From the NCBI GenBank assembly GCA_000158135.1, contig DS999531.1, positions 1,579,774 to 1,643,773 of the forward strand: a DNA stretch of 64,000 nucleotides, in the 5' to 3' direction. The DNA comes from Rhodobacteraceae bacterium KLH11 (GTDB lineage: Bacteria; Pseudomonadota; Alphaproteobacteria; Rhodobacterales; Rhodobacteraceae). Position 1 is the first letter of the stretch. The number at the start of each line of letters is the position of its first letter. Below are positions 14,641 through 29,405 of this stretch, one piece after another. Below the pieces are notes generated by a model, which was not told the DNA's origin, searched no databases, and saw only the letters and a list, made by a program, of their open reading frames with translations. A program made the translations under genes and the position numbers.

Positions 14641-14643
14641 GGA

Positions 14644-15108
14644 TCAGCCCTCCAGAATTTCAGAAGCGCGCTGAATACCAGCGCGGATGCGTTGATAGGT
14701 GGCGCAGCGGCAGGTATTGCCCCACATGTATTCATCGATCTCTTCGACACTCGGCTTGGGATTTTCCGACAACAAGCCAACAGCAGACATGACCTGCCCG
14801 GACTGACAATAGCCGCACTGGACCACGTCCAGTTCAACCCATGCCTGTTGAATGGCAGCGCCGATTTTGTCTTCGCTCATCGCTTCGATTGTGGTGATCT
14901 CGGCACCTTCCACGTCTTCTACATAGGTCTGGCAGGAGCGCACGGGCTGACCATCCACGTGCACGGTGCAAGCACCGCAGGATGCAACACCACACCCAAA
15001 TTTGGTTCCGGTCATTTTGAGCTCGTCCCGGATCACCCACAAAAGCGGTGTGCCCTCGGACGCTTGGACGTCGCGCATCTGGCCATTGATCTTCAAGCTG
15101 GTCGGCAT
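14644..15108 (-). CDS. [2Fe-2S] ferredoxin-like subunit of molybdenum hydroxylase (IorA type)
   Basis: The 154-residue protein has an N-terminal plant-type ferredoxin domain with the cysteine pattern CGVASCGACTVHVDG plus RSC. The C-terminal helical domain has the second cluster motifs QCGYCQSGQ and NTCRCATY. It carries electrons from the molybdopterin subunit at 12454-14640. It has no signal peptide, so it probably travels to the periplasm with its Tat-signal partner. Start set at the ATG at 15108 (MPTSLKING), since the longer frame adds an unrelated N-terminus. It is divergent from a TetR-family gene across a 127-bp region. Confidence 0.94.
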   Translation of the reverse strand: MPTSLKINGQMRDVQASEGTPLLWVIRDELKMTGTKFGCGVASCGACTVHVDGQPVRSCQTYVEDVEGAEITTIEAMSEDKIGAAIQQAWVELDVVQCGYCQSGQVMSAVGLLSENPKPSVEEIDEYMWGNTCRCATYQRIRAGIQRASEILEG

Positions 15109-15191
15109 GTCGGCAGTTTCCCTATTTGATTTGAAAAACACCGGAATTTCCCGGCTTGAATGGACAAGTAGACTCAGATATCCAATTTGTC

Positions 15192-15208
15192 AACTTGTGC
15201 TTTACAAG
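15192..15208. promoter_or_regulatory. Candidate TetR operator
   Basis: A perfect inverted repeat ACTTGT-N5-ACAAGT lies in the 127-bp region between the divergent iorA-like and tetR-like genes. A further ACAAGT half site occurs at 15164-15169 and a TTTGTC near 15185. TetR-family repressors commonly bind such palindromes in the shared divergent promoter, so this is the most likely site of autoregulation and control of the molybdenum hydroxylase. Confidence 0.6.
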
Positions 15209-15235
15209 TGGACGACTCGGGTCTAGATCGGATGC

Positions 15236-15808
15236 ATGATCGTGAATGAAAAAAACCTGAAAATTGTAGAGACTGCGTTTGGTCTATTCGCCCACTATGG
15301 TGTGGCGAAAACCTCCATGACTGAAATCGCGGCGGCATCGAAAGTGTCGCGCCAAACGCTGTATAAAGCCTATGAAAGTAAAGAAGATTTGATCTTCGCG
15401 GCCCTTCTTCAATACGCTGAGAAAACCAAGGCTGAGATTGAAAGCGCCTGCGCAACAGCAACCGATCTTGAGGATAGGCTGGAGATACTGTTCAGGCATA
15501 TGTGCGCCGCCCCTTTTGACGCCATGCAGCGGTTTCCGCATCTCGATGAGATAATGGAAATTGGCGACAACCTCTCACCCGAGCGTGTGAAACAGATCAG
15601 GGGCAATTACCTTGGAGGAATTGGTGTCGTGCTGGCTCCTTTCGAAGAGAGCTTGAAGAAGGCCGGAATTGACTCGTTGCAGCTTCAGAGCACGATCAAG
15701 AGTACATTCACACAAATCAAACGTGACGCGAGTGACGTTGAACACCTCAAAGATCTGTTTGAGCCAATTCGAGCGATGATAGTGTTTTGTGTTCGGGGCA
15801 AGACTTAA
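15236..15808 (+). CDS. TetR/AcrR-family transcriptional regulator
   Basis: The 190-residue protein has an N-terminal TetR helix-turn-helix (about residues 8-50; FGLFAHYGVAKTSMTEIAAA followed by KVSRQTLYKAYESKEDLI). A helical ligand-binding C-terminal region follows. It is divergent from the iorA/iorB-like operon and sits next to a perfect inverted repeat, which fits local repression of those genes. The effector is not predictable. The next gene on the plus strand is far away, so it is probably monocistronic. Confidence 0.93.
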   Translation: MIVNEKNLKIVETAFGLFAHYGVAKTSMTEIAAASKVSRQTLYKAYESKEDLIFAALLQYAEKTKAEIESACATATDLEDRLEILFRHMCAAPFDAMQRFPHLDEIMEIGDNLSPERVKQIRGNYLGGIGVVLAPFEESLKKAGIDSLQLQSTIKSTFTQIKRDASDVEHLKDLFEPIRAMIVFCVRGKT

Positions 15809-16296
15809 GGGCACACTTGGGATTGCTGGCGAGCCCAGCTTCAAAAAAGCGGACATAAGCCTTAGTTCGACGATTGCTCGCGCTTTGTCCCGACCCTGTA
15901 AATTACCTTCGTCAGCTTTGCTGCGGCACGCACGAACGGCGGTTCTACCCGCCGCGCTGCAACACCAAAAATTGCACACGTGCAGAGAAATCTGTGCGGC
16001 GAGCGCGCGCAGTAAGATTTTGACACATCCGCTCAGGGCTCACTGCAGCCTATCGCCGCAACCTTCATGAGCGACTGCTTTCAAGCGCCTCGATTTCAAC
16101 GCTTTGAAATTCCTTGACTTGCGAAACTGCCTACCGCTAAACGCTAGGTCAGGAGAAGCCGAGATGACGTTTGTGAACTCATATCTTTCGAAGCAGCTAT
16201 GCGCGGATGAACGCGGCGCAGTGCTTTGTGGCGGCTTCTCTTCGACAGATGGATTAAGACCCAAGTGATCTAACCCCATCCTTATTGTCCGAACCA
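15809..16296. other. Mostly non-coding stretch with one possible small ORF
   Basis: Apart from the 34-codon ORF listed separately, I see no protein similarity on either strand in this interval. The frames present look accidental. It starts the degraded zone that continues to about 24300. Confidence 0.5.
16164..16268 (+). CDS. Possible 34-residue small protein
   Basis: An ATG at 16164 is preceded by AGGAGA at 8-nt spacing and opens a 34-codon frame ending in TGA at 16266-16268. A good Rho-independent terminator follows 28 bp later. The product starts MTFVNSYLSKQLCADERG and has two cysteines, with no signal peptide or membrane segment. I recognise no family. The ribosome-binding site and terminator support a real transcription unit, but the coding evidence is weak. 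Confidence 0.3.
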   Translation: MTFVNSYLSKQLCADERGAVLCGGFSSTDGLRPK

Positions 16297-16324
16297 AGCC
16301 GTCTCATCCCGAGGCGGCTTTTTC
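16297..16324 (+). terminator. Rho-independent terminator
   Basis: The 9-bp stem AGCCGTCTC/GAGGCGGCT (one G-T pair, loop ATCCC) is followed by a T-rich tract (TTTTTC then more Ts). It lies just upstream of the RNA ligase remnant and downstream of the possible small ORF. Confidence 0.7.
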
Positions 16325-16330
16325 TTTTTC

Positions 16331-17076
16331 AGGAGCATAGACATAGACCATATCATCGAAACGCTGGCGGACGTCCTCCCGCATATTGTCCCCGACACCG
16401 GGATCTTTCATTTCGAACATGAGGGATACTCCGTGATCAACTACCTCTACACGCTGGATAACACGTTCGACAGCGCCGTGGCGCGGGAATGCCGGGGGTT
16501 GAAATTCGACCCCGACGGCAAGCTGATCGCACGGCCTTTCCACAAGTTCTTCAACCTGGCGAAAAGCGCCCGGTGCAGGAAGAACCGTGGGATGCGTCTC
16601 ATGCGGTTCTGGATAAGCTGGACGGCTCGATGATCCACCCGGCGATTGTCGGGGGTGAGATGGTGTTCATGACCCGGATGGGCATTTCCACCCAGTCCCG
16701 GGCAGCCTGGTCTGTTGCGGGGCCTGAGGTCAAAGCACTCTGCGCCGATATGATCGCGACAGGGTTTACGCCGGTCTTCGAGTTCACCTCGCCTGAGAAC
16801 CGAGTGGTGCTGGCCTATGAGGTTTCGCAGCTGACCTTGCTAGCGATCCGGCATTTGCGGACCGGGGCGTACATGCCGCACGCGGAACTGGAGGCCGTTG
16901 CCATTCGGCATGGTGTGCCGATCGTCGCACAGTTTGACAGCGTCGAGGACGTTCATCGGTTCTGGACGGATGCTCAGGCATTGGAGGGTGTCGAAGGTTA
17001 CGTCATCGCGTTCGAGGACGGCCACAGGCTGAAGATCTGTCCGTCGTCAGAGTTTTTGGAACCAGGAGCAGCGTAA
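16331..17076 (+). pseudogene. T4 Rnl1-type RNA ligase, frameshifted and truncated
   Basis: Two overlapping frames together give the N-terminal and adenylation parts of a phage-T4-like RNA ligase. The first (16331 to about 16560) contains INYLYTLDNTF, then ECRGLKFDPDGKLIARPFHKFFNL. The second continues with EKRPVQEEPWDASHAVLDKLDGSM, which holds the nucleotidyl-transferase lysine motif K-L-D-G, then EFTSPENRVVLAYE and EGYVIAFEDGHRLKI. A single G appears to be missing near 16559. The protein then ends early (about 240 residues against the usual 350 or so), close to the end of an IS3-type remnant at 17112. Such ligases repair or splice RNA ends and are typical of phages. The locus is now inactive. 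Confidence 0.82.
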
Positions 17077-17111
17077 ACTAAGAGAGTGTTTGGCTCATCT
17101 GGTCGGTTTGA

Positions 17112-17245
17112 TTATGCTGCGCGTTGGCTGTGATGCAAGCGTCGCGCTTCGAACGTCTTCTGTTTGATCCTTTTTCGTTGTTCCAGAATGGCTTGGTCAC
17201 GCCCAAAGTAGACGTCGGCGGGTGTGACGTTGCTCATAGGATACC
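17112..17245 (-). pseudogene. IS3-type transposase, extreme C-terminal fragment
   Basis: The minus-strand translation reads SNVTPADVYFGRDQAILEQR and then KRIKQKTFEARRLHH, ending with a TAA at 17112-17114. This is the characteristic C-terminal tail of IS3/IS481-like integrase-core transposases (TPADVYFGR block). Only about 42 residues remain and the catalytic core is gone. Its outer end abuts the truncated RNA ligase gene, so insertion or deletion here probably removed the ligase 3' end. Confidence 0.75.
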
Positions 17246-17780
17246 GTTGACATCCTCTCTCTTGGATGCGGGGAGCAGGACCTGCGCATGTCGGGCGGGC
17301 AAATCAAGTGGGGAGGGATGTTTCACTGGCGCACAATCATTGAGACGGCTATGCATTTCCAAAGCCAAAACGCACTGGGTCAGGCTGGTCTGCTAATCGG
17401 TCGGAACAGATTACTGCGGGTAACAACTGCGCCTTCATTGGCTCCGATTGCGATGGACGATTTCGAAAGAGCACGTGATGAGCTTCCTGCCCAAGCCCGA
17501 CGGCTTATCGAAGAAAATGCCGAGCGTCTTGAGATGTTTTTTGATGCCGAAAGGGCACCAGTGACCTTTTATCATGGAGAGCAAGTTGCCTATCGTTAAT
17601 CGCAAAGAGCCCAATTCACTTGGGCAACGAGCTCGAAACGTTCTCTAATGTCTACTTTGGGAAAGCTGCGCCGTAGCAGTGCTCAGCCCGACCAGTGGCA
17701 GGTATGGACCGGAAGCGATAATTTTTTGCCATTCTGTATATTGGCCATAAGGCCAATATACTGCAGTGGTTGTGTCATAA
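17246..17780. other. Degraded stretch without a recognised gene
   Basis: The stretch separates the IS3-type tail from the IS1182 transposase. A plus-strand frame at 17288-17599 encodes 103 residues with a charged, helical C-terminal half (MDDFERARDELPAQARRLIE). I recognise no family, see no ribosome-binding site, and treat it as doubtful. A strong palindrome occurs at 17736-17761. Confidence 0.4.
17736..17761. repeat. 11-bp perfect inverted repeat upstream of the IS1182 transposase
   Basis: The arms GTATATTGGCC and GGCCAATATAC are perfect inverted repeats around an ATAA loop. It lies about 80-100 bp upstream of the transposase frame. It could be a structural or operator element of the IS, or a host hairpin at which the IS inserted. 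No T-run follows. Confidence 0.6.
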
Positions 17781-17840
17781 AAAGACCCTGACCCGGGGCT
17801 ACATGCAACGCTTACGGTTGACGAGGATAATCCGGTTCGC

Positions 17841-19187
17841 GTGGTTGATCTCTTTGTGGAGGAGATTGATCTTGAGGAGACAGGTTTCCAGCGGACGGCG
17901 CCGGCGCGGACAGGGCGGCCCGGCTATCACCCATCGGTCCTGTTAAAGCTGTTCATCTACGGCTATCTGAACCGCGTGCCCTCCAGCCGCGCGCTTGAAC
18001 GGGAGGCTGGTCGCAATGTCGAGGTGATGTGGCTGACCGGGCGGCTCGCGCCCGACCATAAGACAATCGCTGATTTTCGCCGCGATAACGGCCCCGCTAT
18101 TCGGCGAACCTGTGCGCAGTTCGTCGAACTCTGTCGCCGGATTGGGGTGTTAAAGGGGGATTGTGTCGCCATCGACGGCTCCAAGTTCAAGGCGGACAAC
18201 AATCGAGACAAGAACTTCACCAAAGGCAAGATCAAAAGCCGCACGGCCCATCTGGTCGCGAGTATTCAGCGCTACCTTGATGAAATGGTCCGGATCGACC
18301 GTCAGGAAGAGGGTGAGGCCCGAGTCGAGAAGATCGCCAACCTGGCGCAACGCTGCGAGCGCATCCGGCAGGAGATCGCGCGCTTGGTGGACATGGGTGA
18401 GGCGCTCAGGCCGAGCCCGGACAGTCAGATCTCCCTGACTGATCCGGATGCCCGCTCCATGGCCACCAGCGCCAAAGGCAGCGGATTTGTGGGCTACAAC
18501 GCCCAGTCCGCAGTGGATACCGAGACCCATCTGATCGTCACGCATGACGTCATCAACGTCGGGCACGACCGTGAACAGCTGTCGCCGATGGCCAAATCGG
18601 CGAAGGCCGCTCTGGGACGCGGCGAAATGAGCGCGGTCGCTGACAAGGGCTATTTCAGCGGTCGGGAAATCCTGGCCTGTCACCAGGATGGGATCACCAC
18701 AACCCTCCCCCGGCCCGAGACATCCGGCAACCGCAAGAAGGGCCGGTATGTGAAGGCAAACTTTGCCTACGACGCGGGCGAAGATGTGTATCTTTGCCCA
18801 GCAGGTGAGACGCTGACATACCGCTACACGACCGAGGAAAGCGGCTTGTCGGTACGGCGATACTGGACCAATGCCTGTCTGAGTTGTCCGGCCAAAGCGC
18901 GCTGCACAACCGGCAGAGAACGGCGGATCTCCAGGTGGGAACACGAGCATCTGGTGGACCAGATGTGCGACCGATTGAGCCGCGACCCGGCCTTGATGGG
19001 TCTCCGTCGCTCGACCGTCGAACACCCGTTCGGCACGATCAAAGCCTGGATGGGAGCGACGCACTTCCGGATGCGAACGCTCAAGAACGTCCGCACCGAG
19101 ATGGCATTCCATGTCCTCGCCTATAACATCAAACGGATGATCGCCCTGATCGGGGTACGTGGGCTTCTGACAGCCATTCCGACCTAA
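17841..19187 (+). CDS. IS1182-family transposase, probably N-terminally truncated
   Basis: The 448-residue product has the IS1182 layout. An N-terminal DUF772 region (RTGRPGYHPSVLLKLFIYGYLNR in two parts) is followed by a DDE core with aspartates in VAIDGSKFKA and VADKGYFSG, a zinc-finger-like segment (CPAGETL, CLSCPAKARC), and the catalytic glutamate in STVEHPFGTIKAWMG. All catalytic residues are present. Family members start about 25 residues earlier with an ATG. Here the in-frame upstream codons (VDEDNPVR region) run into a TAA near 17777 with no ATG, and only a GTG at 17841 is available. Whether it is active is uncertain. Confidence 0.85.
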   Translation: MVDLFVEEIDLEETGFQRTAPARTGRPGYHPSVLLKLFIYGYLNRVPSSRALEREAGRNVEVMWLTGRLAPDHKTIADFRRDNGPAIRRTCAQFVELCRRIGVLKGDCVAIDGSKFKADNNRDKNFTKGKIKSRTAHLVASIQRYLDEMVRIDRQEEGEARVEKIANLAQRCERIRQEIARLVDMGEALRPSPDSQISLTDPDARSMATSAKGSGFVGYNAQSAVDTETHLIVTHDVINVGHDREQLSPMAKSAKAALGRGEMSAVADKGYFSGREILACHQDGITTTLPRPETSGNRKKGRYVKANFAYDAGEDVYLCPAGETLTYRYTTEESGLSVRRYWTNACLSCPAKARCTTGRERRISRWEHEHLVDQMCDRLSRDPALMGLRRSTVEHPFGTIKAWMGATHFRMRTLKNVRTEMAFHVLAYNIKRMIALIGVRGLLTAIPT

Positions 19188-19769
19188 ACTGGGGCGAACC
19201 GTTCAGATTGTACGGCGGGAAACGCTGTGAGAGCTCAGTTTCCACCCTCCCTCCGGCGCAATAAGCCCCAAAATGGTCTAGAAACCGAAAACCCTAAAGA
19301 ACCCCGCAGAAAACCGTAAAAACCACGAAACCAAAAGAGTTTCCACACAGCCTCAGCCCAAAGCAGTTATGCTCACCCCCAGCGCTGCCAGTGCATCTTC
19401 CAAGTCGACCTGCACGCCATCCCGTCCATGTTGGACTGAGACTTGCTCGATTGGACTCTGTATAATTTCCAAAGCTCCGGTGCGGATCGATTGGTCAGAT
19501 AATCTGACGTTGCAAAGCGTGTGTGAAACCTGCTATGAAAGCGTGTTTTACCTTTTGCGGGTCAAACCGAGTTGACCCCAAAAAATAAAAAATCGACTGA
19601 AGGCCCAATTTCACGAAAGTAAAACCGCCCCGATCACCTGATGGTCTGATAGAGAGCAACCTTGATTTGCGCCTTGCTCAAAGCCTTGGTCCTGCATTAA
19701 TCTAGTCTCGAAAATATCCATCTCGATGGTGGTTAAGCAACGGCGGTCAAATTTGGGAGATCGAAAACC
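19188..19769. other. No clear gene between transposase and glycan locus
   Basis: The first 170 bp are probably the right flank of the IS1182 element; no matching terminal inverted repeat was found by eye. A minus-strand frame without a start at about 19369-19530 ends IIQSPIEQVSVQHGRDGVQV and then DLEDALAALG, which looks protein-like but matches nothing I recognise. The remaining sequence is AT-rich and should hold the promoter of the gene at 19770. Confidence 0.4.
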
Positions 19770-20729
19770 TTGCTTCAAACCATGTTTCGCCGCAGCTCGG
19801 TCATAACACGCAAGCTGACCGAAGCGTTGCTGGATACCGGTGTGGTCAATTTATTCAACCCATCCATTCAAGCGACTGCCGAGGGTTATTCTGCGGCATT
19901 TCGCGGACTGGCCAAAGGTGCACAAAAGCCCTTTGACTCATTTTTGGTGCATTTTGACTCAGATTGCGCCCCGCTCGGCCGGGCGATCAGTCTGGGCGAG
20001 CTGTTCAGATCCCAAATCGGAACGCATGTTTGCGACCCAAAGCTGTTTCGTATCGGCGGGCGGTGCTGGGTGACCTTCAATACCGGGCATTTCGAGCGAC
20101 CAAATCGGATTTTTGTCGCAGTGATTGGCCCTGAGCTTGGGCCACTTCTTGAGGTCGACTACCCTGACCGGACAGAGGTGGAGAAGAACTGGGCATTTTT
20201 TGAACAAGAAGGAAAAATCCATGCCCTCTATGATGCCTGTCCGACCGTCATTCTGCGTGAAAAGTCGCGGCTGGACGGCAAAATCATATTCGAGCGTGTA
20301 ACTGACTGGGATAGCAAGCAAGATGCTTCAAACCAGAAGGCCACCAAACAGCCCAAAGTGACGATCGGCACTCCGCTTGAGTTGCTAGACCCCATGCGCA
20401 ATCTGTATGGCTTTATCGGGCACCGACGCTGGTATTGGCGCGGAAAACGATTGTATCTGGGCAGTCCAATGACGTTGAAACTGGATGCCGAAGGTGCACA
20501 CATTCACACAACGAGCCACATCTGGACGCATTCTTTGCGATCAATGCTTGGTGATCAGACCAAACACAACCCCAACTTGATCAGTTGCACTTACTTTTCC
20601 GGGTTAAGCGTGACGGCGGACAAGGTACTCGTGTCTTATGGCATAAATGACGTTGACTTTTCGCTGGCTGAGATGCCTTTGACATGGTGGAGCAAGCAAA
20701 CAGCTAAGAACAGCAACAGAGGCATGTGA
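19770..20729 (+). CDS. Glycosidase-like beta-propeller protein
   Basis: The 319-residue protein resembles five-bladed beta-propeller glycosidase-like proteins of the GH43/GH130 type. It has an NPSI start block, a YSAAFRG strand, CDPKLFRIGGRCWVTFNTG, an EKNWAFFEQEGKIHALYDACP segment, and a C-terminal SGLSVTADKVLVSYGINDVD. No signal peptide is obvious. It is the first of four overlapping or closely packed genes with a pyruvyl transferase and two glycosyltransferases, so it probably acts in making or trimming a surface glycan. The catalytic residues and substrate cannot be assigned from sequence alone. The first residues (MLQTMFRRSS) could also start at the second ATG. Confidence 0.7.
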   Translation: MLQTMFRRSSVITRKLTEALLDTGVVNLFNPSIQATAEGYSAAFRGLAKGAQKPFDSFLVHFDSDCAPLGRAISLGELFRSQIGTHVCDPKLFRIGGRCWVTFNTGHFERPNRIFVAVIGPELGPLLEVDYPDRTEVEKNWAFFEQEGKIHALYDACPTVILREKSRLDGKIIFERVTDWDSKQDASNQKATKQPKVTIGTPLELLDPMRNLYGFIGHRRWYWRGKRLYLGSPMTLKLDAEGAHIHTTSHIWTHSLRSMLGDQTKHNPNLISCTYFSGLSVTADKVLVSYGINDVDFSLAEMPLTWWSKQTAKNSNRGM

Positions 20730-21580
20730 TGGTGGCAAATGTAAGGGTCTTTTTCTGGCACGACAGAGTGCGCAGCCGCATGCGACTGAATTTCGACCGC
20801 TACACCAAACTCAGAAAATCGACTTGGCGAGAGTTTGGGGTGGGCAATGCTGGCGACATCTTTGCACGCAACCTTGTTTCGCACCACTATCATGGAAGTA
20901 AGGCGCTTAATGTCACGGAAGGGCCCCGGCTTTTGTGCGTGGGCTCCATCGCGCACAAACTTGCCCCTGGTGATATATTGTGTGGAATCGGGTGCAAGGA
21001 TGTCGCTTTTCCGGCTGTCGATCCAGAAACAGTAAAGGTGCAAGGGGTGCGGGGCCCGATTACCGCCACAGCCCTTCACAAAGCTGGTTATGACGTGTCG
21101 CAGATTAAGTGGCATGGCGACCCCGGCCTTAAGATTTCACAAATGTTGAATCCAGAATCAGCGAAACCGGGCCGAGCGATTTTCATTCCGCACTATCGCG
21201 AGCGGGGTATGGTTCGGAAAGTAATTCCCAAATGGATAAATATGGTAGACATTGATGACGACCCACTTCGCATTGGGCGTGAAATTATGCGGGCAGAATT
21301 GGTCTACTCATCGTCCCTTCATGGCATTATCTTCGCACACGCTTTGGGGCGCCCGGTTGTCATGGTCAAACCCGCGACGGAAGAGCCGTTGCTCAAGTTC
21401 GACGACTATTTCTTTGGCGTCGGGCTTGCGCGCCCGCGCTATCTCTCGTCGATTACCGAAGCCGATATTCATACTAAGCCAAATTCGCCCGCATCCTTGT
21501 CGGTTTCGGCCGAGGACCTTATTTTCCCGACAGCGCAAGAACTGGAAAGCCGTGGGATCATGACAACGGAACCCGAATGA
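20729..21580 (+). CDS. Polysaccharide pyruvyl transferase family protein
   Basis: The 283-residue protein has motifs of the CsaB/ExoV pyruvyl transferase family. These are an early NAGD block (GVGNAGDIFARNLV), VRGPITATAL near the middle, HGDPGL, and the hallmark SSLHGIIFAHALGRP near the C-terminal third. Enzymes of this family add pyruvate ketals to sugars of exopolysaccharides or wall polymers using phosphoenolpyruvate. The ATG overlaps the upstream stop codon (TGATG), showing translational coupling. A GTG 3 bp earlier is an alternative start. Confidence 0.88.
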   Translation: MVANVRVFFWHDRVRSRMRLNFDRYTKLRKSTWREFGVGNAGDIFARNLVSHHYHGSKALNVTEGPRLLCVGSIAHKLAPGDILCGIGCKDVAFPAVDPETVKVQGVRGPITATALHKAGYDVSQIKWHGDPGLKISQMLNPESAKPGRAIFIPHYRERGMVRKVIPKWINMVDIDDDPLRIGREIMRAELVYSSSLHGIIFAHALGRPVVMVKPATEEPLLKFDDYFFGVGLARPRYLSSITEADIHTKPNSPASLSVSAEDLIFPTAQELESRGIMTTEPE

Positions 21581-22404
21581 TGGCCGAGACTTTCGACGAT
21601 CCCTCAAAGGTCTGCATTCTTTCAGGCCGGTTTCCCCGGAGCGAGTTTTTGCATCCATGGAACCACTACGCCTATGCCAGACGGCATGGCTATACCTACA
21701 TCAGTTGCGATTGGCCTACCGCTGCTACCAATCGATACATGACAAAATTCATGTACCTCAAACACTATATCAATCATTTCGACTATGTGTTCTGGATCGA
21801 TGATGATGCGTTTTTTATTGATCACAGCAAATCGCTGGACGCGTTTATTCCCAAGGGAGACCGTCTTGCCTCTTTCTGCAAGAGCCCTGCAAACAAGAAA
21901 ATTTTCACCTACCTCAGTTCAGGCCAGTTTTTGATCCGAGGTGGCAAGCGCAGCGAAGATTTTATCGATGCCATTTTGGAAACTTCGCTTGATCAGGTGA
22001 AAACCTGGTGGTCTGAAGATCTGGGCATGTTCACCGGCGGCGATCAGGACGCAATAGTCTATTTGGTGCACGAAAACGACAAGTACTACGACTGCATCGA
22101 GCTGTTTAATTACATGCAGTTCAACAGTCGTCTGGCAGATTTGAACGAAACCCCCAACGACGTATTCTTGCTGCATTTCACAGGACCGCGAGAGACCAAA
22201 ATTGCACATGCGAAAACAGCCGCGAAGATTCTGAAATCTGGCCCTTCACTGGTTCCCGAGCACCTTGAGAAAGAGCTGCTGGGTGGGCGCGGAATGCGAT
22301 CCATCCTAAACGCCATGCGAACAGAACTTTGGCTGCCGGAGCCAAAGAAACGAAAGAGCAAACCGTTCAAACGTTTGAAAAACCTTCTTGGCCGTGCATC
22401 CTAA
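21577..22404 (+). CDS. DXD-type glycosyltransferase
   Basis: The 275-residue protein has a single GT-A-like domain with the metal/nucleotide-sugar motif in YVFWIDDDAFF (near residues 69-79). An aspartate-rich acceptor segment, MFTGGDQDAIVYLVHEND, and a late HFTGPRETK block follow. The pattern resembles GT34-type galactosyl/mannosyl transferases (GMA12/MNN10). The basic C-terminus (KKRKSKPFKRLKNLLG) may bind the membrane. The start overlaps the pyruvyl transferase stop, so the two are coupled. The sugar and acceptor are unknown. Confidence 0.85.
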   Translation: MMAETFDDPSKVCILSGRFPRSEFLHPWNHYAYARRHGYTYISCDWPTAATNRYMTKFMYLKHYINHFDYVFWIDDDAFFIDHSKSLDAFIPKGDRLASFCKSPANKKIFTYLSSGQFLIRGGKRSEDFIDAILETSLDQVKTWWSEDLGMFTGGDQDAIVYLVHENDKYYDCIELFNYMQFNSRLADLNETPNDVFLLHFTGPRETKIAHAKTAAKILKSGPSLVPEHLEKELLGGRGMRSILNAMRTELWLPEPKKRKSKPFKRLKNLLGRAS

Positions 22405-22495
22405 AGTGCGGGAATCTGGACAATCTGGCAACATTGCACAACAGAATGGATCTAGCAGCGATGAATCTGCGTCGACACCTCGGTGGTTGGTACAA

Positions 22496-23698
22496 ATGCA
22501 AAGAAAGTGGAAAAAAATGGGCGATACATCGAACCAATATTCCCTAGAGTCGAGTAGCGGCCGAAACTTCCTTTCTTCTGCGGCCACCGAACGGCTTGGA
22601 ACGGGACACACTTCAATTGCGTCGAAAGCCACAAAGAACCCTGTGAAGGTTCTTTATTGGCCTCGGTATTCAAACCCGTATCAGGATCTTTTCTACGGCG
22701 AAGACTCACCGGCGTTCAGCTCAGAAGCCAAAACAATTTTTGACGCGATTGAGGTGCTCGTAAAAAATCCCTCGGAAACAGTGGTTTTTCATCTTCATTG
22801 GCTGAATTTTTTGTTCAATGGTAAAACGCCAGAAAAACGGGAACGCACCGTAAACACCTTTATCGGCGCGTGTCGAAAATTTTGCGAGGCCGGGGGAACG
22901 CTCGTCTGGACGGTTCATAATTTGGCCGAGCATGACAAGCTTGAAACCGATTTGGAAATGAGTCTGCGCAAAGAACTATGCAGGCTCGCGTCTGCCTTGT
23001 TTGTACATGGATATGCCGCCAAAACCGCTGTGATCGAAAGCCTTCCGGAGGCGGAAGGCAAAATACATAACGTTGTTCATGGACACTATATTGATTGTTA
23101 TCCGAACACGGTACCCAACAAAACAGCGCGCGCAATCGTCGGCCTTTTCAAACCCGCAACCGTTTTTCTAAGCCTTGGATGGATCCGGCCCTATAAGGGG
23201 CTGAATGACCTATGCAGCGCGATGAAGTCCCTAGGGGATGGTTCCAATAAAGCAGAACTCGTTATTGCAGGTAAAATGCGCCCTATAGATGAGTCTTACT
23301 TTGATGACCTCTTCGCAAATGCGCGCAATTTCCGTATCCATGAAGGCTGGGTGTCGGATGAAAATGTTCAAACTTACATGAACGCATCCGACTTTATGGT
23401 CTTGCCCTACAGAGCGTCGCTTACGTCTGGCGCAGCGTTGCTTTCTTTTTCGTTTTCACTGCCGATCATCGCACCCAATATTGGGAGTTTTCCAGAGTTG
23501 ATCCAAGATGGGCAGAACGGGTTTCTGTATGACCCGGACGAAGAAGGTGGACTACAAAAGGTGATGGAACGCGCGATTGCGACTGAGCCCGAAGCTCGAT
23601 CTCAGATGAAACGGGTATCACTGGACACCGCGCTCATCCACGATTGGGACGACGCACGTAAAGCGTTCATCAATGTGATCGACATTGCCATTCAATGA
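22496..23698 (+). CDS. GT4-like glycosyltransferase
   Basis: The protein (about 400 residues) has the GT-B fold of family 4 transferases. The N-terminal domain includes VLYWPRYSNPYQDLF and VVFHLHWLNFL, with VWTVHNLAEHD typical of this fold. The C-terminal domain has FLSLGWIRPYKGLND, FRIHEGWVSDENVQTYMNASDFMVLPYR in two parts, and the donor-binding IAPNIGSFPELI. The start is uncertain. In-frame TTG 22388, ATG 22496 and ATG 22517 are possible, and similarity begins only near 22640. It is the last gene of the glycan locus. Confidence 0.87.
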   Translation: MQRKWKKMGDTSNQYSLESSSGRNFLSSAATERLGTGHTSIASKATKNPVKVLYWPRYSNPYQDLFYGEDSPAFSSEAKTIFDAIEVLVKNPSETVVFHLHWLNFLFNGKTPEKRERTVNTFIGACRKFCEAGGTLVWTVHNLAEHDKLETDLEMSLRKELCRLASALFVHGYAAKTAVIESLPEAEGKIHNVVHGHYIDCYPNTVPNKTARAIVGLFKPATVFLSLGWIRPYKGLNDLCSAMKSLGDGSNKAELVIAGKMRPIDESYFDDLFANARNFRIHEGWVSDENVQTYMNASDFMVLPYRASLTSGAALLSFSFSLPIIAPNIGSFPELIQDGQNGFLYDPDEEGGLQKVMERAIATEPEARSQMKRVSLDTALIHDWDDARKAFINVIDIAIQ

Positions 23699-23964
23699 TA
23701 AATCTTTGGCAACCCTCAGTTTGGAACCGGTTTTTGAACAAACATTCGGTGGATGAATGGAAAGGGTCGAAATTGTAGTGGTAAGACGAGCTCGAAAGTT
23801 GAGCAAGCGGTTTGTTATGGATTAGATGACTTCAGAGCTGCTGTTCGCTGCAGGAGCAGAGTTTATGCAATTTTTGGTGCAAATTGGAATTTCCAACTTT
23901 GACTCTATGAGGTTACGAAAATTCTGCATTGAGTCGGCGAAAGCGGACTTGAATTTACTTCCCA
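23699..23964. other. Intergenic region after the glycan locus
   Basis: No gene or clear terminator is seen here. The sequence is moderately AT-rich and leads into the integrase remnant. Confidence 0.4.
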
Positions 23965-24110
23965 GGATGGCGGGTGATTGGCCCCGGAGGGCATCACGCG
24001 GACACCAAACCCAGCAATCTGGCTGTCCCATACGAAGTAGTCTTTCGCCTCAACCGGTAAGGCTTCTACGGCGCGTTTCCGCGTGTCGAACCCTTCAGGA
24101 TCATCGTTGT
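23965..24110 (-). pseudogene. Tyrosine integrase, N-terminal remnant (DUF4102 arm-binding domain)
   Basis: Minus-strand translation in a frame without a start reads KRAVEALPVEAKDYFVWDSQ followed by IAGFGVRVMPSG. This is the conserved N-terminus of phage/island integrases with a DUF4102 DNA-binding domain. Similarity ends after the MPSG block and the catalytic R-H-R-Y domain is absent. It marks the former presence of an integrated element, consistent with the truncated tRNA-fMet copy near 3205. Confidence 0.75.
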
Positions 24111-24295
24111 ACCATCAGTGCGTAGAGCAGGTCGCGTCGCATCTCCTGAATAGCCACACATGCCTCGACCAAATCTTGCTCGGTCTCAGGAGTAACGGGA
24201 AGTGAGCCCGTGTTGAGAACGGTGACAGTCGAGGTGACCCTGCCAACCAACAGAAACGGATTCTCCACCTCAAGGGCCTGGATCAGGGAGCTGGG
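24101..24295 (-). pseudogene. Fragment of an unrecognised gene upstream of the integrase remnant
   Basis: The minus-strand frame gives 64 residues, with SLIQALEVENPFLLVGRVTS and then PETEQDLVEACVAIQEMRRD, ending in a TGA that overlaps the integrase start region (ATGA-type). The composition is protein-like and the coupling to the integrase is typical of island genes, but I do not recognise the family. There is no start codon; an in-frame TGA precedes it. Confidence 0.45.
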
Positions 24296-24312
24296 TCACA
24301 AGGTATGCTGTA

Positions 24313-25668
24313 TTAAAGACCAGCGGCGACTTCTTTGATCGCGTCGCGCAAGATGTCTTCAATCCGGTCAATCATGACTTCGTCCATGATCAGGGTCGGG
24401 GACAGGATCAGCACGTTGCCCAAGGGTCGCGCGATCAGGCCGCGTTTTTGACAGGCACGGGCCACTTTCAACCCGACTTGCGCGTCATCCGGATAGCTTT
24501 CCTTGGTGGCGCGGTCTTTGACGAACTCGATCCCCATCATGAAATGGCTGCCGCGCACTTCGCCGACCAGTTCGATATCGGTCAGGCTGCGCAGGTTGTT
24601 CTCAAATTGCTTGCCGGTCGTGCGCACACGCTGGGGGATGCCCTCGCGTTCCATAATGGCGATGTTGGTCAGGCCTGCCGCGGCAGCCGCAGGGTGGCCC
24701 GAATAAGTCATGCCATGCAGGAACATGCCATCCGGCCCTGAGATCACCTCGTGAATATCGTCAGAGACGATCGTGGCCGACAGAGGTTGATAGCCCGAGG
24801 TCAGACCCTTGGCGGTCGTGATGATGTCGGGCACCATGTCGAACACATCCTCGGACGCAAAGAAATGACCAAGACGGCCGAAGGCGGTAACCACCTCGTC
24901 GGCGACATATTTGATGTCATTGGCTTGGCAGACCTCCCACGCGCGTTTGTGATAGCCGTTGGGTGCTGTCACAACACCGCCCGCACCCTGAATGGGTTCG
25001 GCGATGAAGGCACAGATGTTCTCGGCACCGATCCGCTCGATGCTTTGTTTCAGGTCGTCGATCAGGGCATCGAGGAACTCACCCTCGGTCATCTCACCAC
25101 CTTCACGCCAGAAATGCGGTGAGCGCAGGTGATGCACCAGGTCATTGGCCGTATGCCAGCCTTCGGAATAACCAGGCGTGGTCATCGCCATCGCCAGATG
25201 GGTCGAGCCGTGATAGGCCCCGTGCCGCGACAGGACCAGCTTCTTTTCCGGCTTGCCCTTGCGGATGTTATAATGATGCAGCATCCGAATGGCGCTGTCA
25301 TTGGCGACCGAACCGGAATTGCCGAAATACACTGCGTTCAGATGACCCGGGGCAAGGCTTGTGATCTTTTCGGCCAGTGCCGCCGCCGCAGGATGGGTGA
25401 AGTTGTAGAAGGTCGAATAATAATCCAGCGTTTGAAGCTGCTCGGTGATCGCCGAAATCATTTCTTCATTGCCGTGGCCGATATTGACGCACCACAAACC
25501 GCCGATCCCGTCGATCAGCTCGGTTCCGTCGCTGTCATATACATAAGCGCCTTTTGCCCGCGAGATCACGGTGCGCGCGCCTTGCTGTTTCAGCGCGTTC
25601 AGGTCTGCGAAGGACTGAATCAGGTGATCGTCCTGAGTAAGAATGTCGAGCGTATCTTTGATCATCAT
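24313..25668 (-). CDS. Class III PLP aminotransferase (omega-amino acid/polyamine--pyruvate type)
   Basis: The 451-residue enzyme is a fold-type I, class III aminotransferase. It shows FGNSGSVANDSAIRM (phosphate-binding region), SRHGAYHGST, the cofactor aspartate D257 in VADEV, and the Schiff-base lysine K287 in TTAKGLTSGYQPLSA. Close relatives include putrescine-, beta-alanine- and taurine-pyruvate aminotransferases, which convert a terminal amine to an aldehyde. It is divergent from a LuxR-type regulator and next to a flavin monooxygenase, PuuC-like aldehyde dehydrogenase and polyamine transporter, so a diamine or omega-amino acid substrate is likely. The ATG at 25668 follows AAGAGGG. Confidence 0.93.
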   Translation of the reverse strand: MMIKDTLDILTQDDHLIQSFADLNALKQQGARTVISRAKGAYVYDSDGTELIDGIGGLWCVNIGHGNEEMISAITEQLQTLDYYSTFYNFTHPAAAALAEKITSLAPGHLNAVYFGNSGSVANDSAIRMLHHYNIRKGKPEKKLVLSRHGAYHGSTHLAMAMTTPGYSEGWHTANDLVHHLRSPHFWREGGEMTEGEFLDALIDDLKQSIERIGAENICAFIAEPIQGAGGVVTAPNGYHKRAWEVCQANDIKYVADEVVTAFGRLGHFFASEDVFDMVPDIITTAKGLTSGYQPLSATIVSDDIHEVISGPDGMFLHGMTYSGHPAAAAAGLTNIAIMEREGIPQRVRTTGKQFENNLRSLTDIELVGEVRGSHFMMGIEFVKDRATKESYPDDAQVGLKVARACQKRGLIARPLGNVLILSPTLIMDEVMIDRIEDILRDAIKEVAAGL

Positions 25669-25779
25669 CAACCCTCTTGTTTTTTCTATGTTACTTCGTG
25701 GATGTAGCGAGGCCCGCAGGCCCGCAGTTGCACAGGCATACCACCCACTTTCAGGAAAAAGGTTACTTTGACATATTTA

Positions 25780-25795
25780 GGGGGTATATACCCCC
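25780..25795. promoter_or_regulatory. Perfect 16-bp palindrome in front of the luxR-type gene
   Basis: GGGGGTATATACCCCC is a perfect palindrome ending 16 bp before the regulator ATG at 25812 and lying in the region shared with the divergent aminotransferase. Its core GGTATATACC recurs at 37245-37254, just upstream of the polyamine transporter operon. It is a strong candidate operator for the LuxR-type protein or for another regulator of the locus. A TTGACA at 25768-25773 could be a -35 box. Confidence 0.6.
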
Positions 25796-25811
25796 AAAGG
25801 GGTACCTGAGA

Positions 25812-26624
25812 ATGTCACCAATCCCAGCACCAGAGGTTTTATCGGCTGCAATACTGGCAATCGGATCAGAGCGTTTCGGCGACAGGCTGTCTCATTGGCT
25901 GGATGCGACATGCTCATTCGACAACTTCGCGATTATCGCCTTTTTTCGAAACAGCAACCCGCAGGTCCTGATGACCCGGGCCCGGGACACCCGGGTTTTT
26001 GAACGTATCGGCAGCCATTATGTCAAAGGGTCCTATCTGCTGGACCCGTTCTTCGGCCTGCATCAACGAGGCGCGGCGGATGGGCTTTATCGTTTGACGG
26101 ATATTGCCCCCGATCAGTTTCAGCGTAACGAGTATTTCAAGTCTTACTACAGGAACACCACACTGACGGATGAGCTTGCATTTTTCGCAAGTCTCACCCC
26201 CTCCAGTTCGATTACGGTTTGTATTGGCCGGGATGCAACCACCGCTTCGCGATTCTCGTCCAGGGATTACAATACAGCCAAACAGGTTGCACCGGTGGTC
26301 AACGCGCTCGTCCGGATGAACTGGTCCGATATCAAGTGCCCGAACGAGGACGAGCCCGGGGATATCGCTGACCAGCTACGCCGCCGCTTGTCCGCCGAGA
26401 AAGACATCAGCCTGAGCCCAAGACAGGCCCAGGTGGCGCTTTTGATTCTGCAGGGGCATTCGTCGATTTCCATCGGGCTGACGCTGGGGATCAGCCCGCA
26501 GACCGTCAAGGTATTGCGCAAGCAGCTTTACCGGAAATGCCAGATTTCATCGCAGGGTGAGCTGTATTACCTGATAGCGCGTTACCTGTCAGAAAGCGGG
26601 CAACTGGCGGGGAAATCAACGTAA
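25812..26624 (+). CDS. LuxR-family (GerE HTH) transcriptional regulator
   Basis: The 270-residue protein has a C-terminal LuxR/GerE helix-turn-helix at about residues 195-255 (LSPRQAQVALLILQGHSSIS and then IGLTLGISPQTVKVLRKQLYRK). The N-terminal region of about 190 residues has no domain I can name with confidence and lacks an obvious receiver domain or autoinducer-binding tryptophan pattern. The ATG at 25812 (MSPIPAPEV) was chosen since the longer frame crosses the palindromic operator. It is divergent from the aminotransferase and upstream of the flavin monooxygenase operon, so it probably controls amine catabolism here. Confidence 0.9.
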   Translation: MSPIPAPEVLSAAILAIGSERFGDRLSHWLDATCSFDNFAIIAFFRNSNPQVLMTRARDTRVFERIGSHYVKGSYLLDPFFGLHQRGAADGLYRLTDIAPDQFQRNEYFKSYYRNTTLTDELAFFASLTPSSSITVCIGRDATTASRFSSRDYNTAKQVAPVVNALVRMNWSDIKCPNEDEPGDIADQLRRRLSAEKDISLSPRQAQVALLILQGHSSISIGLTLGISPQTVKVLRKQLYRKCQISSQGELYYLIARYLSESGQLAGKST

Positions 26625-26635
26625 CACCCGGAAGG

Positions 26636-26650
26636 TTAGCCAAAGCCTAA
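26636..26650. promoter_or_regulatory. TTAG-N7-CTAA motif, copy 1
   Basis: The 15-bp inverted repeat TTAGCCAAAGCCTAA lies in the 290-bp gap between the luxR-type gene and the flavin monooxygenase operon, which otherwise holds no gene. Its inner pair is a T-N11-A, as preferred by LysR regulators. Identical architecture recurs at 31877 and 37296 in front of the other operons of this locus. Confidence 0.5.
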
Positions 26651-26914
26651 TTAAGAATAAGTTAGACAGTAATTTCGCTGGTTCCGAACTTGTGAAACCT
26701 TGTCCCGGAAACGTGCAAAACGTGCTCTGGCGGCACAGAAGGCGGGGCCTTTATCCCGGTATTGGTCAACCCAATGGGTCCGCGCTGACGCTCAGGTCTT
26801 GAATATAAAACGTTTGGCCCCTTGTGGCCGCGCGTTCCCCAGGACCGGCACAATATGCGCGATGGCAATGACCTCTCGGGGTCAATTCGAGACGCAGATA
26901 TAGGGAACCGAGAC

Positions 26915-28195
26915 ATGTCCATTGAAAAAACCGATACGCTGGTTGTTGGCGGCGGGCAGGCTGGTATCGCGCTGAGCGAGCATCTGGGAAACAACAATGT
27001 CCCCCACATCATACTGGAAAAGAACCGCACCGCCGAGGCGTGGCGTACCGGGCGCTGGGATGCGCTGGTTGCCAATGGCCCGGCATGGCATGACCGGTTT
27101 CCCAGCCTGTTGTTCAAGGGTGACGACCCCGACGCGTTTGTGTCCAAGGATCGGGTCGCCGAATATCTGGTTGACTATGCCGAGATGGTCAAAGCGCCCA
27201 TCCGAGAAGGCGTTGAGGCCTTGAAAGCCGAACGTCTGCCGGGGCAAGGGGGGTTTCGTGTTGAAACCTCTGCCGGTGAAATTCATGCCAAACGCATCGT
27301 GGCTGCCACGGGCGCGTTTCAACAGCCGGTCATCCCGCCGATCGTGCCGGAAACGGCGGGCGTCGAACAGTTGCATTCCTTTTATTACAAAAACCCCGGT
27401 CAGTTGTCTGACGGTGCTGTACTGGTTGTGGGCGCCGGGTCTTCTGGCGCGCAGATCGCAGATGAGTTGAACCGCGCGGGCCGCAAGGTCTTTCTGTCGG
27501 TTGGCCCGCACGACCGCCCGCCGCGTCGTTATCGTGGTCGCGATTTTGTCTGGTGGCTGGGCGTTCTGGGCCTGTGGGATGTGGCCGCGATGAAGCCGGG
27601 CACCGAGCATGTCACGATCTCGGTCAGTGGTGCCTATGGCGGCCACACAATGGATTTCCGTCGTCTGGGCAATGAGGGTGTCACCCTCGTTGGAATGACC
27701 AAGAGTTTTGAAGATGGCACCCTCAGTTTCTCAGATGATTTGCAGCGGAACGTGGCCGCTGGCGATGCCAATTATCTTGAGATGCTTGATCTTGCGGATG
27801 CCTATGTTGAACGCACCGGTATCGAGCTGCCAGAAGAGCCCGAGGCACGCAAAGCGTTTGCTGATCCCGATTGTCTGACCAACCCCTTGGCGTCGATTGA
27901 TTTTTCCAGGGAAGGCATCACCACGATTGTCTGGGCTACGGGCTTCCGGCAGGATTTCAGCTGGATCAAGGCCAACGCCTTTGATGACAAGGGCGCACCG
28001 GTTCATCAGCGTGGCGTTTCAATCGAACCGGACGTGTACTTTCTTGGCCTGCCCTGGCAATCGCGCCGTGGCTCGACCTTTATCTGGGGTGTGTGGCACG
28101 ACGCCAAATACATTGCCGACCAGATCGCGATCCAGCGCGCTTATGCCGATTACGATGGTCAGGCGGCCATCATCGCCCCCGCTGCTGCTGAATAA
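26915..28195 (+). CDS. Flavin-containing monooxygenase-like FAD/NAD(P)-binding protein
   Basis: The 426-residue protein has two Rossmann motifs. The N-terminal FAD site is VVGGGQAGIALSEHLG (residues 9-24) and the second, NADPH-type, site is VVGAGSSGAQIADEL near residue 170. An FMO-like region between them and a late ATGF block (VWATGFRQDFSW) are also present. This matches class B flavin monooxygenases of the FMO/YUCCA type that oxygenate nitrogen or sulfur atoms, or oxidise aldehydes. The ATG at 26915 (MSIEKTDT) is chosen over upstream frames. It is the first gene of an operon with RidA, a DUF1028 protein and an aldehyde dehydrogenase. Confidence 0.9.
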   Translation: MSIEKTDTLVVGGGQAGIALSEHLGNNNVPHIILEKNRTAEAWRTGRWDALVANGPAWHDRFPSLLFKGDDPDAFVSKDRVAEYLVDYAEMVKAPIREGVEALKAERLPGQGGFRVETSAGEIHAKRIVAATGAFQQPVIPPIVPETAGVEQLHSFYYKNPGQLSDGAVLVVGAGSSGAQIADELNRAGRKVFLSVGPHDRPPRRYRGRDFVWWLGVLGLWDVAAMKPGTEHVTISVSGAYGGHTMDFRRLGNEGVTLVGMTKSFEDGTLSFSDDLQRNVAAGDANYLEMLDLADAYVERTGIELPEEPEARKAFADPDCLTNPLASIDFSREGITTIVWATGFRQDFSWIKANAFDDKGAPVHQRGVSIEPDVYFLGLPWQSRRGSTFIWGVWHDAKYIADQIAIQRAYADYDGQAAIIAPAAAE

Positions 28196-28213
28196 GATTA
28201 CAGGACACACCAA

Positions 28214-28630
28214 ATGGCGCATACTCGCATTCGCAAATTCAACACTAAAGAAACCTATCCCGAGCAGAACCTCGACAACGATCTGTGTCAGGCCGTTGTC
28301 ACGCAGGGCGGCAAGACTGTCTATCTGCGCGGTCAGTGCCCGCAAAATCTGGACGATGCGGTCAATATCGACAGCCATGACCCGGTCGAACAGACCCACA
28401 AGGTGATGCAGAACATCCGCCAACTGATCGAAGAGGCCGGTGGCACGATGGAACATCTGGTCAAGGTCGTCGTTTACATCACCGATGTCCGCCACCGCGA
28501 GGCCGTCTATCGCACCATGGGCGAGTATATCAAAGGGGTTTATCCCTGCTCGACCGGGCTGGTGGTTCAGGCGCTGGCGCGGCCTGAATGGCTGGTTGAG
28601 ATCGACGGCACCGCTGTCATCCCCGACTGA
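28214..28630 (+). CDS. RidA-family protein
   Basis: The 138-residue protein has the YjgF/YER057c/UK114 fold. The C-terminal arginine-containing block is ALARPEWLVEIDGTAV, with a preceding YPCSTGLVVQ segment. RidA proteins hydrolyse reactive enamines/imines formed by PLP enzymes and flavin oxidases. Residue variation in the C-terminal motif means it could belong to an Rid1-7 subgroup instead of RidA proper. It starts 18 bp after the monooxygenase, which forms imine-type products in related systems, so imine clearance is a sensible role. Confidence 0.92.
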   Translation: MAHTRIRKFNTKETYPEQNLDNDLCQAVVTQGGKTVYLRGQCPQNLDDAVNIDSHDPVEQTHKVMQNIRQLIEEAGGTMEHLVKVVVYITDVRHREAVYRTMGEYIKGVYPCSTGLVVQALARPEWLVEIDGTAVIPD

Positions 28631-28714
28631 TCTTACCGCTCATTTGAGGAAACCGGGCTGTGCTTGCACACTCACGCGCCGCACACCCCGGTCTTTGTCG
28701 TTAAGGAGGTTTGC

Positions 28715-29389
28715 ATGACTTTTTCACTGGTCGCCCGTTGCGCTGACACCGGTATGTTCGGTTTGGCGATTTCGTCGTCATCGCCCGCCGTTGCCGCCCG
28801 CTGTTCCTTTGCGCGTGCAGGCGTCGGGGCAGTTGCGTCGCAAAACGTGACCGACCCCAGCCTCGGCCCGCTGACGCTGGACCTGATGGAGCAGGGCAAG
28901 ACTGCGCCGGATGCGATTGCTGAGGTGACCGCCCGCGCGAAGTTCATGGAATACCGTCAGGTTCTGGCCGTGGATAATTCGGGGCGGACGGCGATCCATT
29001 CCGGCCCCAACAGCCTTGGCATCTGGACGCAGGCGCAGGCTGAAAACGTGGCATCGGGCGGTAACCTTCTTGCCAATGACGGTGTTCCACAAGCTATCGT
29101 TGACGGCTTTCTGGCCGCCTCCGGGCATATCGGAGACCGCCTGATTGCCGCGATGCGGGCCGGTTTGGCCGCAGGTGGTGAGGCCGGTCCAGTGCATTCC
29201 GCAGGTTTGAAGATCGTTGACAAGGTCAGTTGGCCAGTGGCCGACCTGCGCTGCGACTGGACCGAGGATTGCCCGATCGAGGCTGTTGCGACAGCCTGGG
29301 ATGTCTACCAACCACAGCTTGACGCCTATATCCAGCGCGCGCTCGACCCGCGCGAGGCACCGTCCTACGGCGTGCCGGGCGACGAATAA
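28715..29389 (+). CDS. DUF1028 family protein
   Basis: The 224-residue protein begins MTFSLVARCADTGMFGLAIS and continues with SSSPAVAARCSFARAGVGAV, the conserved start of DUF1028 proteins, which are predicted Ntn-hydrolase-like. A GGEAGPVHSAGLKIVD block and a C-terminal DLRCDWTEDCP motif complete it. The molecular activity is not established; amidohydrolase-type cleavage has been suggested by fold. The ATG at 28715 follows AAGGAGG. It lies between ridA and the aldehyde dehydrogenase in one operon, which supports a role in amine or amide breakdown. Confidence 0.9.
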   Translation: MTFSLVARCADTGMFGLAISSSSPAVAARCSFARAGVGAVASQNVTDPSLGPLTLDLMEQGKTAPDAIAEVTARAKFMEYRQVLAVDNSGRTAIHSGPNSLGIWTQAQAENVASGGNLLANDGVPQAIVDGFLAASGHIGDRLIAAMRAGLAAGGEAGPVHSAGLKIVDKVSWPVADLRCDWTEDCPIEAVATAWDVYQPQLDAYIQRALDPREAPSYGVPGDE

Positions 29390-29405
29390 TCAGGGAGATA
29401 CACGG

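Follow-up and report, generated by a model that had tools for sequence, protein, structure and literature searches.

What does a run of four glycan-type genes set among mobile-element debris make, and how did it reach its present site? The question is raised by positions 19770–23698 of a 64,000-nucleotide stretch of Rhodobacteraceae bacterium KLH11 (contig DS999531.1; the whole stretch is called the window below), which is part of a 3.12-Mb contig in a 4.49-Mb Ruegeria genome. We lean, with modest confidence, towards a four-gene cassette, gained by horizontal transfer, for the synthesis of a short pyruvylated glycan, with the first gene product (g1) acting as an inverting transferase and the host providing export. 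Glycan building and modification by the four genes, as predicted from protein families and motifs, is supported. The open reading frame (ORF) listing gives the set as follows:

19770..20729, + strand: g1, a 319-aa predicted beta-propeller of GH130/GT108-like type and candidate propeller glycosyltransferase
20726..21580, + strand: g2, a predicted polysaccharide pyruvyl transferase, with its start at GTG 20726, ATG 20729 or GTG 20732
21577..22404, + strand: g3, a GT34-type (GMA12/MNN10) glycosyltransferase with a DDD motif
22496..23698, + strand: g4, a GT4-type glycosyltransferase whose frame is open from TTG 22388, with a likely start at ATG 22496

An earlier note, made from the sequence alone, had described a glycosidase-like propeller, a pyruvyl transferase and two glycosyltransferases, all translationally coupled. 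The four glycan-type ORFs are borne out by their coordinates and by Pfam matches for g2, g3 and g4, and the propeller stands for g1, with the 'glycosidase-like' label narrowed to the GH130/GT108 type by predicted structure and fold matches. The overlaps of up to 4 bases at g1/g2 and g2/g3 agree with coupling there. The listed TTG 22388 start of g4 is probably wrong, since its homologues align from about ATG 22496, which leaves a gap of about 90 bases after g3; coupling is therefore supported for g1–g2–g3 only. No export, polymerase or lipid-carrier gene was seen within the four-gene set, a simple hydropathy scan found no membrane segment in the cassette proteins, and promoter and terminator scans gave chance-level results only.

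The protein encoded by g2 is predicted to transfer pyruvate from phosphoenolpyruvate (PEP) as a ketal onto a polysaccharide. It belongs to PS_pyruv_trans (PF04230; 36.9 bits, cut-off 25.3) and carries N41AGD, R109GPIT and H199, corresponding to the pyruvyl transferase motifs N-x-G-D, R-xxx-(S/T) and H given in the available excerpt of PMC10629545; all three are kept in four of four orthologues and in a natural fusion protein described below. The g3 protein matches Glyco_transf_34 (PF05637; 39.9 bits, cut-off 23) and has a DXD motif within WIDDDAFF, of which W73-I-D-D-D77 is invariant in the four orthologues. The g4 protein falls in family GT4 through Glycos_transf_1 (PF00534; 59.6 bits, cut-off 26.4) and is also above the cut-off of PF13692.

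The predicted propeller protein g1 and its proposed pyruvyl transferase partner

No Pfam family matches g1, and for g1 and g2 alike NCBIfam, PADLOC and PHROGs added nothing of use. An AlphaFold2 (AF2) model of g1 built from four sequences reached a predicted local distance difference test score (pLDDT) of 78.4 and a predicted template modelling score (pTM) of 0.82. The top Foldseek match of this model in the Protein Data Bank (PDB) was Leishmania MPT-2 of family GT108 (E 2.3e-9, TM-score 0.54, 16–17% identity in the fold alignment), with GH130 enzymes alongside. GH130 leads in VIA-align (Z 20.0 to RaMP1, 5ay9, with a root-mean-square deviation (rmsd) of 3.9 over 280 residues), and MPT-2 follows at Z 17.5, with other propeller families at 15.3 or below. 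The AF2 model thus has the GH130-type beta-propeller fold by VIA-align and the MPT-type (GT108) propeller fold by Foldseek rank and Z score.

At the sequence level, g1 is unmatched by the GH130 model PF04041, which found nothing in the own genome in a search that matched 4 of 14 control genomes; the relative of g1 in genome G629 stayed below threshold (16.6 of 26 bits). Nor was GT108 reached by sequence: no MPT chain appeared up to E 10 when PDB sequences were searched with the profile, at the sensitivity of that search. In a profile comparison with five GH130 proteins, D294 of g1 falls on an Asp invariant among the five and is the sole site residue so aligned; membership of GH130 is not established by sequence because only the C-terminal part of g1 aligns there.

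Across an alignment of six sequences (the four orthologues, the G629 fusion and a phage-contig protein), five residues do not vary: N30, R45, D89, K139 and D294. They resemble N74, R89, D142, K199 and D363 of BT3780, which are among its active-site residues in the available part of PMC4599007, where D142 is invariant in GH130 and K199 is a beta-1,2 determinant. The N-to-R distance is 15 in both g1 and BT3780. All four orthologues, the phage protein and one of the five GH130 proteins share this spacing, which is 16 in the G629 fusion and in a second of the GH130 proteins. In both the g1 group and the GH130 proteins, D-(P/A/M)-(R/K) is preceded by an acidic or small residue. Judged by these patterns, g1 seems to keep the mannose-site residues of GH130/GT108 enzymes, and it shares the GH130 fold, and probably the site, without belonging to GH130 by sequence.

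The strongest hint that g1 and g2 may act on the same glycan comes from G629, a genome of another alphaproteobacterial family, in which one 822-aa ORF (L036:8967-11435) joins a g1-like propeller to a pyruvyl transferase. The propeller part is matched by the four-orthologue profile at E 1e-14 and by BLAST with g1 (28% over 229 columns), while the pyruvyl part is 36% identical to g2 over 209 columns and above the PF04230 cut-off. A protein of a giant virus, Satyrvirus, that is named as a WcaK-like pyruvyl transferase matches the g1 propeller model at E 1.4e-8, and its length of 806 residues suggests that it, too, is a propeller–pyruvyl transferase fusion.

Further relatives were seen around these proteins. 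Elsewhere in the same 20 kb of G629 stand a WcbI gene and two further ORFs that match pyruvyl transferases, one of them in two stretches. The one locus for g1 among viral contigs lies on the phage contig IMGVR_UViG_3300043403_000031 (L038:7800-8681) and encodes a single-domain propeller of the g1 family; its EDPR motif is GH130-like. Because the later g1 profile includes the G629 and phage-contig sequences, their scores against it are by construction, and their support comes from the four-orthologue profile, the BLAST comparison and the viral-contig search. A 553-aa propeller-like protein of G709 (L061:7047-8738) with FEDPRIF and EKNYGFF motifs is a distant g1 relative (E 7.9e-4 against the g1 profile; E 6.6e-6 in a small set). 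A candidate in G538 was dropped (E 5.4e-4, two in-frame stops, unmatched in the later profile search).

Distribution, base composition and insertion site

Besides the own genome, two other Ruegeria genomes and one genome of another genus (G051, G006 and G263) carry the genes in the same order, g1–g2–g3–g4. In the tallies, which count the own genome, g1 was found in 3 of the 101 genomes searched, and 3 of 54 genomes of the genus had a strong g2; samples drawn from the family, the class and the phylum may overlap and are not independent of one another. The g1 and g3 profiles each matched the same two of 394 family genomes (about one per genus). Scanning of genome contigs with the g3 profile returned the G051 and G006 contigs only, and a single-protein g2 scan of genome contigs had no match. 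Three weak g2 matches in the genus (28–31%, E 1.1e-8 to 2.7e-7) were rejected as cassettes and counted as ordinary pyruvyl transferases. Neither g1, g3 nor the DNA as a whole had a match among plasmid records, which for g2 held only distant pyruvyl transferases (10 records, 27–32%).

The carriers differ in where the cassette sits. It lies between mdh and sucC in G051, which has its own copy of the island surroundings elsewhere, without the cassette; near ABC-transporter-like genes (named by eye) and a GT2 gene in G006; and among GT2 and acyltransferase genes and further glycosyltransferases in G263. The window and G051 are 53, 70, 73 and 55% identical in the four cassette proteins, against 62, 82, 84, 91, 92 and 96% in six proteins around the island. 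An AT3-SGNH acyltransferase gene adjoins the cassette in G006 and G263, two of the four carriers (loci L016:10300-12228 and L006:9932-12205).

Base composition was compared with a reference set of 109 ORFs, each 230 aa or longer, drawn from ten 20-kb stretches of the contig that holds the window (mean GC content 0.587, s.d. 0.038). The cassette genes have a GC content of 0.487–0.533 and a third-position GC content (GC3) of 0.517–0.592; on both measures every gene ranks no higher than the 6th percentile of this set, and the same holds for the codon scores. In G051, G006 and G263, too, the orthologues have a lower GC content than the stretches that contain them.

Four features flank the cassette in the window:

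17037..17236, strand not assigned: insertion-sequence end of 200 bp from a two-ORF element, abutting an RNA-ligase-like gene
17816..19358, + strand: IS1182-family element, apparently intact, with its transposase at 17841-19187 (NF033551, 425.9 bits, cut-off 270)
23978..24078, − strand: tyrosine integrase remnant, N-terminal arm-binding region, with 33 residues identical to a 394-aa integrase of G024
24313..25671, − strand: conserved aminotransferase-like gene (named by eye), at whose 3' end synteny with seven other Ruegeria ends

The IS1182 element ends about 410 bases 5' of g1. Its transposase matches the NCBIfam model through to the end, and the own genome has one further copy identical over 1543 bp and another over 1475 bp. 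On the other side, neither Pfam nor NCBIfam names the integrase remnant itself; the integrase of G024, another Ruegeria, matches Phage_integrase and Arm-DNA-bind_3. Both elements adjoin the cassette, and the link is one of position only. The fragment at 17037-17236, which we take to be IS3-like, is 100% identical to four other places in the own genome that bear 326-aa and 137-aa ORFs. Next to it, the RNA-ligase-like gene (16138-17037; RNA_lig_T4_1) lies in a segment of up to 0.9 kb that is 88–90% identical in four other Ruegeria, the match ending sharply at 17037.

Beyond the integrase remnant, the seven Ruegeria loci whose homology reaches the aminotransferase (L019-L025) show what usually stands there. 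In seven of seven, a 689-aa flavin oxidoreductase (Oxidored_FMN) stands within about 60–70 bases beyond the aminotransferase; this gene is absent from the window, where homology stops at the aminotransferase 3' end, and the island occupies its position.

The four-gene set is supported as an acquired, transferable cassette without conserved synteny, because the same gene order recurs at differing sites, carriers are few and a flavin oxidoreductase stands in its place elsewhere. Three earlier suggestions hold up here: that the genes are AT-richer than their neighbours (GC, GC3 and codon score), that they lie between an IS1182 element and an integrase remnant (the NF033551 match with its identical copies, and the 33 residues shared with the G024 integrase) and that they were acquired (low GC and codon use, patchy distribution, differing sites and the synteny break in seven of seven loci). 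Composition and distribution were both checked, and genus-wide synteny with host-like composition was not what we found.

Proposed function and alternatives

Under the reading that we favour, all four proteins would be cytoplasmic, and their acceptor would be lipid-linked or supplied by the host in some other way. The GT4 protein g4 and the GT34-type g3 would add sugars and build this acceptor; g1 would then add a sugar by inversion from a nucleotide sugar, most likely a beta-mannosyl residue, and g2 would move pyruvate from PEP as a ketal onto that residue or a neighbour. Host export machinery would display the altered glycan as a new negatively charged epitope, which could alter phage adsorption, adhesion or grazing. 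For g1, transfer of a beta-mannosyl residue is plausible by analogy because terminal 4,6-pyruvyl-beta-mannose occurs as an end group in xanthan and in the exopolysaccharide (EPS) of marine Alteromonas (excerpt of PMC6801904). Of the 'surface-polysaccharide modification' first suggested for this locus, the family matches and pyruvyl transferase motifs thus support glycan building and modification, and its placement at the surface is conjectural.

Several results weigh against this reading. The five g1 models spread from pLDDT 78 down to 64, and the best Foldseek rows have TM-scores of just ~0.54–0.58 with an rmsd of 6–8. The g1 profile gave a single, irrelevant match against PDB sequences (E 0.39); against the five GH130 proteins it aligns just 73 C-terminal columns (probability 49, E 1.7e-4), and with the four orthologues alone the probability drops to 5. 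The correspondence of N30, R45, D89 and K139 to BT3780 was drawn by motif and spacing rather than by superposition, the 15-residue spacing is found in only one of the five compared GH130 proteins, and g1 has Cys or Ala where BT3780 has Glu141. The AF2 model of g3 is poor (pLDDT 45.7) and gives no basis for judging a GT-A fold. Only four cassettes were found, and AT-richness alone proves little because the TetR gene at 15236, outside the cassette, is equally AT-rich.

A rival reading gives g1 a degrading or remodelling role: as a beta-mannoside phosphorylase or hydrolase, it would trim or recycle what the other three make. The best-Z structural neighbours of g1 are GH130 phosphorylases and related enzymes, and K139 and H218 (the His kept in four orthologues) may match basic GH130 positions by eye. 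We nevertheless consider this role improbable: g1 stands beside three biosynthetic genes at four of four loci, and in G629 such a propeller and a pyruvyl transferase form one protein. GH130 phosphorylases have an Arg, presumably phosphate-binding, in their [HS]RP stretch; in its place the four g1 orthologues have, by eye, C, S or D. GH130 hydrolases are moreover described as secreted in the available part of PMC4599007, and g1 has no strongly hydrophobic segment.

Two further explanations concern the origin and state of the whole set. The adjoining integrase remnant could mark a phage- or prophage-derived seroconversion module that mainly alters a phage receptor, and a g1-like propeller does follow virion-type genes on the IMG/VR contig (roles by eye), distant g2 relatives occur in four phage records, and wbbYZ occurs, functional, in a Caudovirales genome (excerpt of PMC10629545). 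Yet the remnant is N-terminal only, phage records had no g1 match at E 0.01, viral contigs had no g2 or g3 relative, and no phage structural gene was noticed among the ORFs of 14000-30000, where the ORF list was viewed without a family-by-family search; we rate such a module as rather unlikely, below the degrading role. Decay is less probable again: low GC, the insertion-sequence and integrase debris, the lack of any export gene seen in the set and the position of the G263 copy among more glycan genes might point to a functionless leftover of a larger polysaccharide locus, but four genomes keep all four frames open and in one order, at roughly 38–73% identity and with motif residues invariant.

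Beyond the favoured reading of an acquired pyruvylated-glycan cassette, we advance only tentatively a broader one, in which g1 would found a bacterial and viral family of GT108/GH130-like propeller transferases, paired or fused with pyruvyl transferases, that installs pyruvylated beta-mannose-type ends, and the cassette would be a surface-epitope swap spreading among marine bacteria. GT108 propeller transferases have an odd fold among glycosyltransferases, and in the available excerpts their characterised members are named from Leishmania only (PMC8950772, PMC8476585). If true, propeller transfer chemistry and pyruvylated beta-mannosides would become tractable in a bacterial relative that is linked to pyruvylation and has a natural fusion, and the cassette would be a mobile means of changing a marine bacterium's surface.

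Comparison with known systems

The closest described arrangement is wbbY–wbbZ of Klebsiella pneumoniae O1, a functional glycosyltransferase–pyruvyltransferase pair found between transposable elements, in other genera and in a phage (excerpt of PMC10629545). Like it, the locus described here is a small cassette of glycosyltransferase and pyruvyltransferase genes with adjoining mobile elements and a patchy distribution; wbbYZ caps a surface glycan with pyruvate. It differs in having two genes and a known acceptor, with no propeller or GT34-type gene named in the excerpt, and g2 is likened to WbbZ through the three published motifs only, not by alignment.

In xanthan synthesis, beta-mannosyl transfer by GumI and then formation of a pyruvyl ketal by GumL give the end product predicted for the cassette (excerpt of PMC6801904); the likeness is one of chemistry, not sequence, and the cassette has no Gum-type polymerisation or export genes. 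The dual-activity GT108 mannosyltransferase-phosphorylases of Leishmania share the propeller fold of g1 (excerpts of PMC8950772 and PMC8476585), but g1 has no sequence-level match to them and is associated with pyruvylation. The mannoside phosphorylases and mannosidases of GH130 have the same propeller and mannose-site residues that g1 seems to keep (excerpt of PMC4599007), whereas g1 is unmatched by PF04041, has one basic position changed (by eye) and sits in a biosynthetic context. The enzyme classes are known, and the four-gene combination was found here in four genomes; the partnership of propeller and pyruvyltransferase is the new part.

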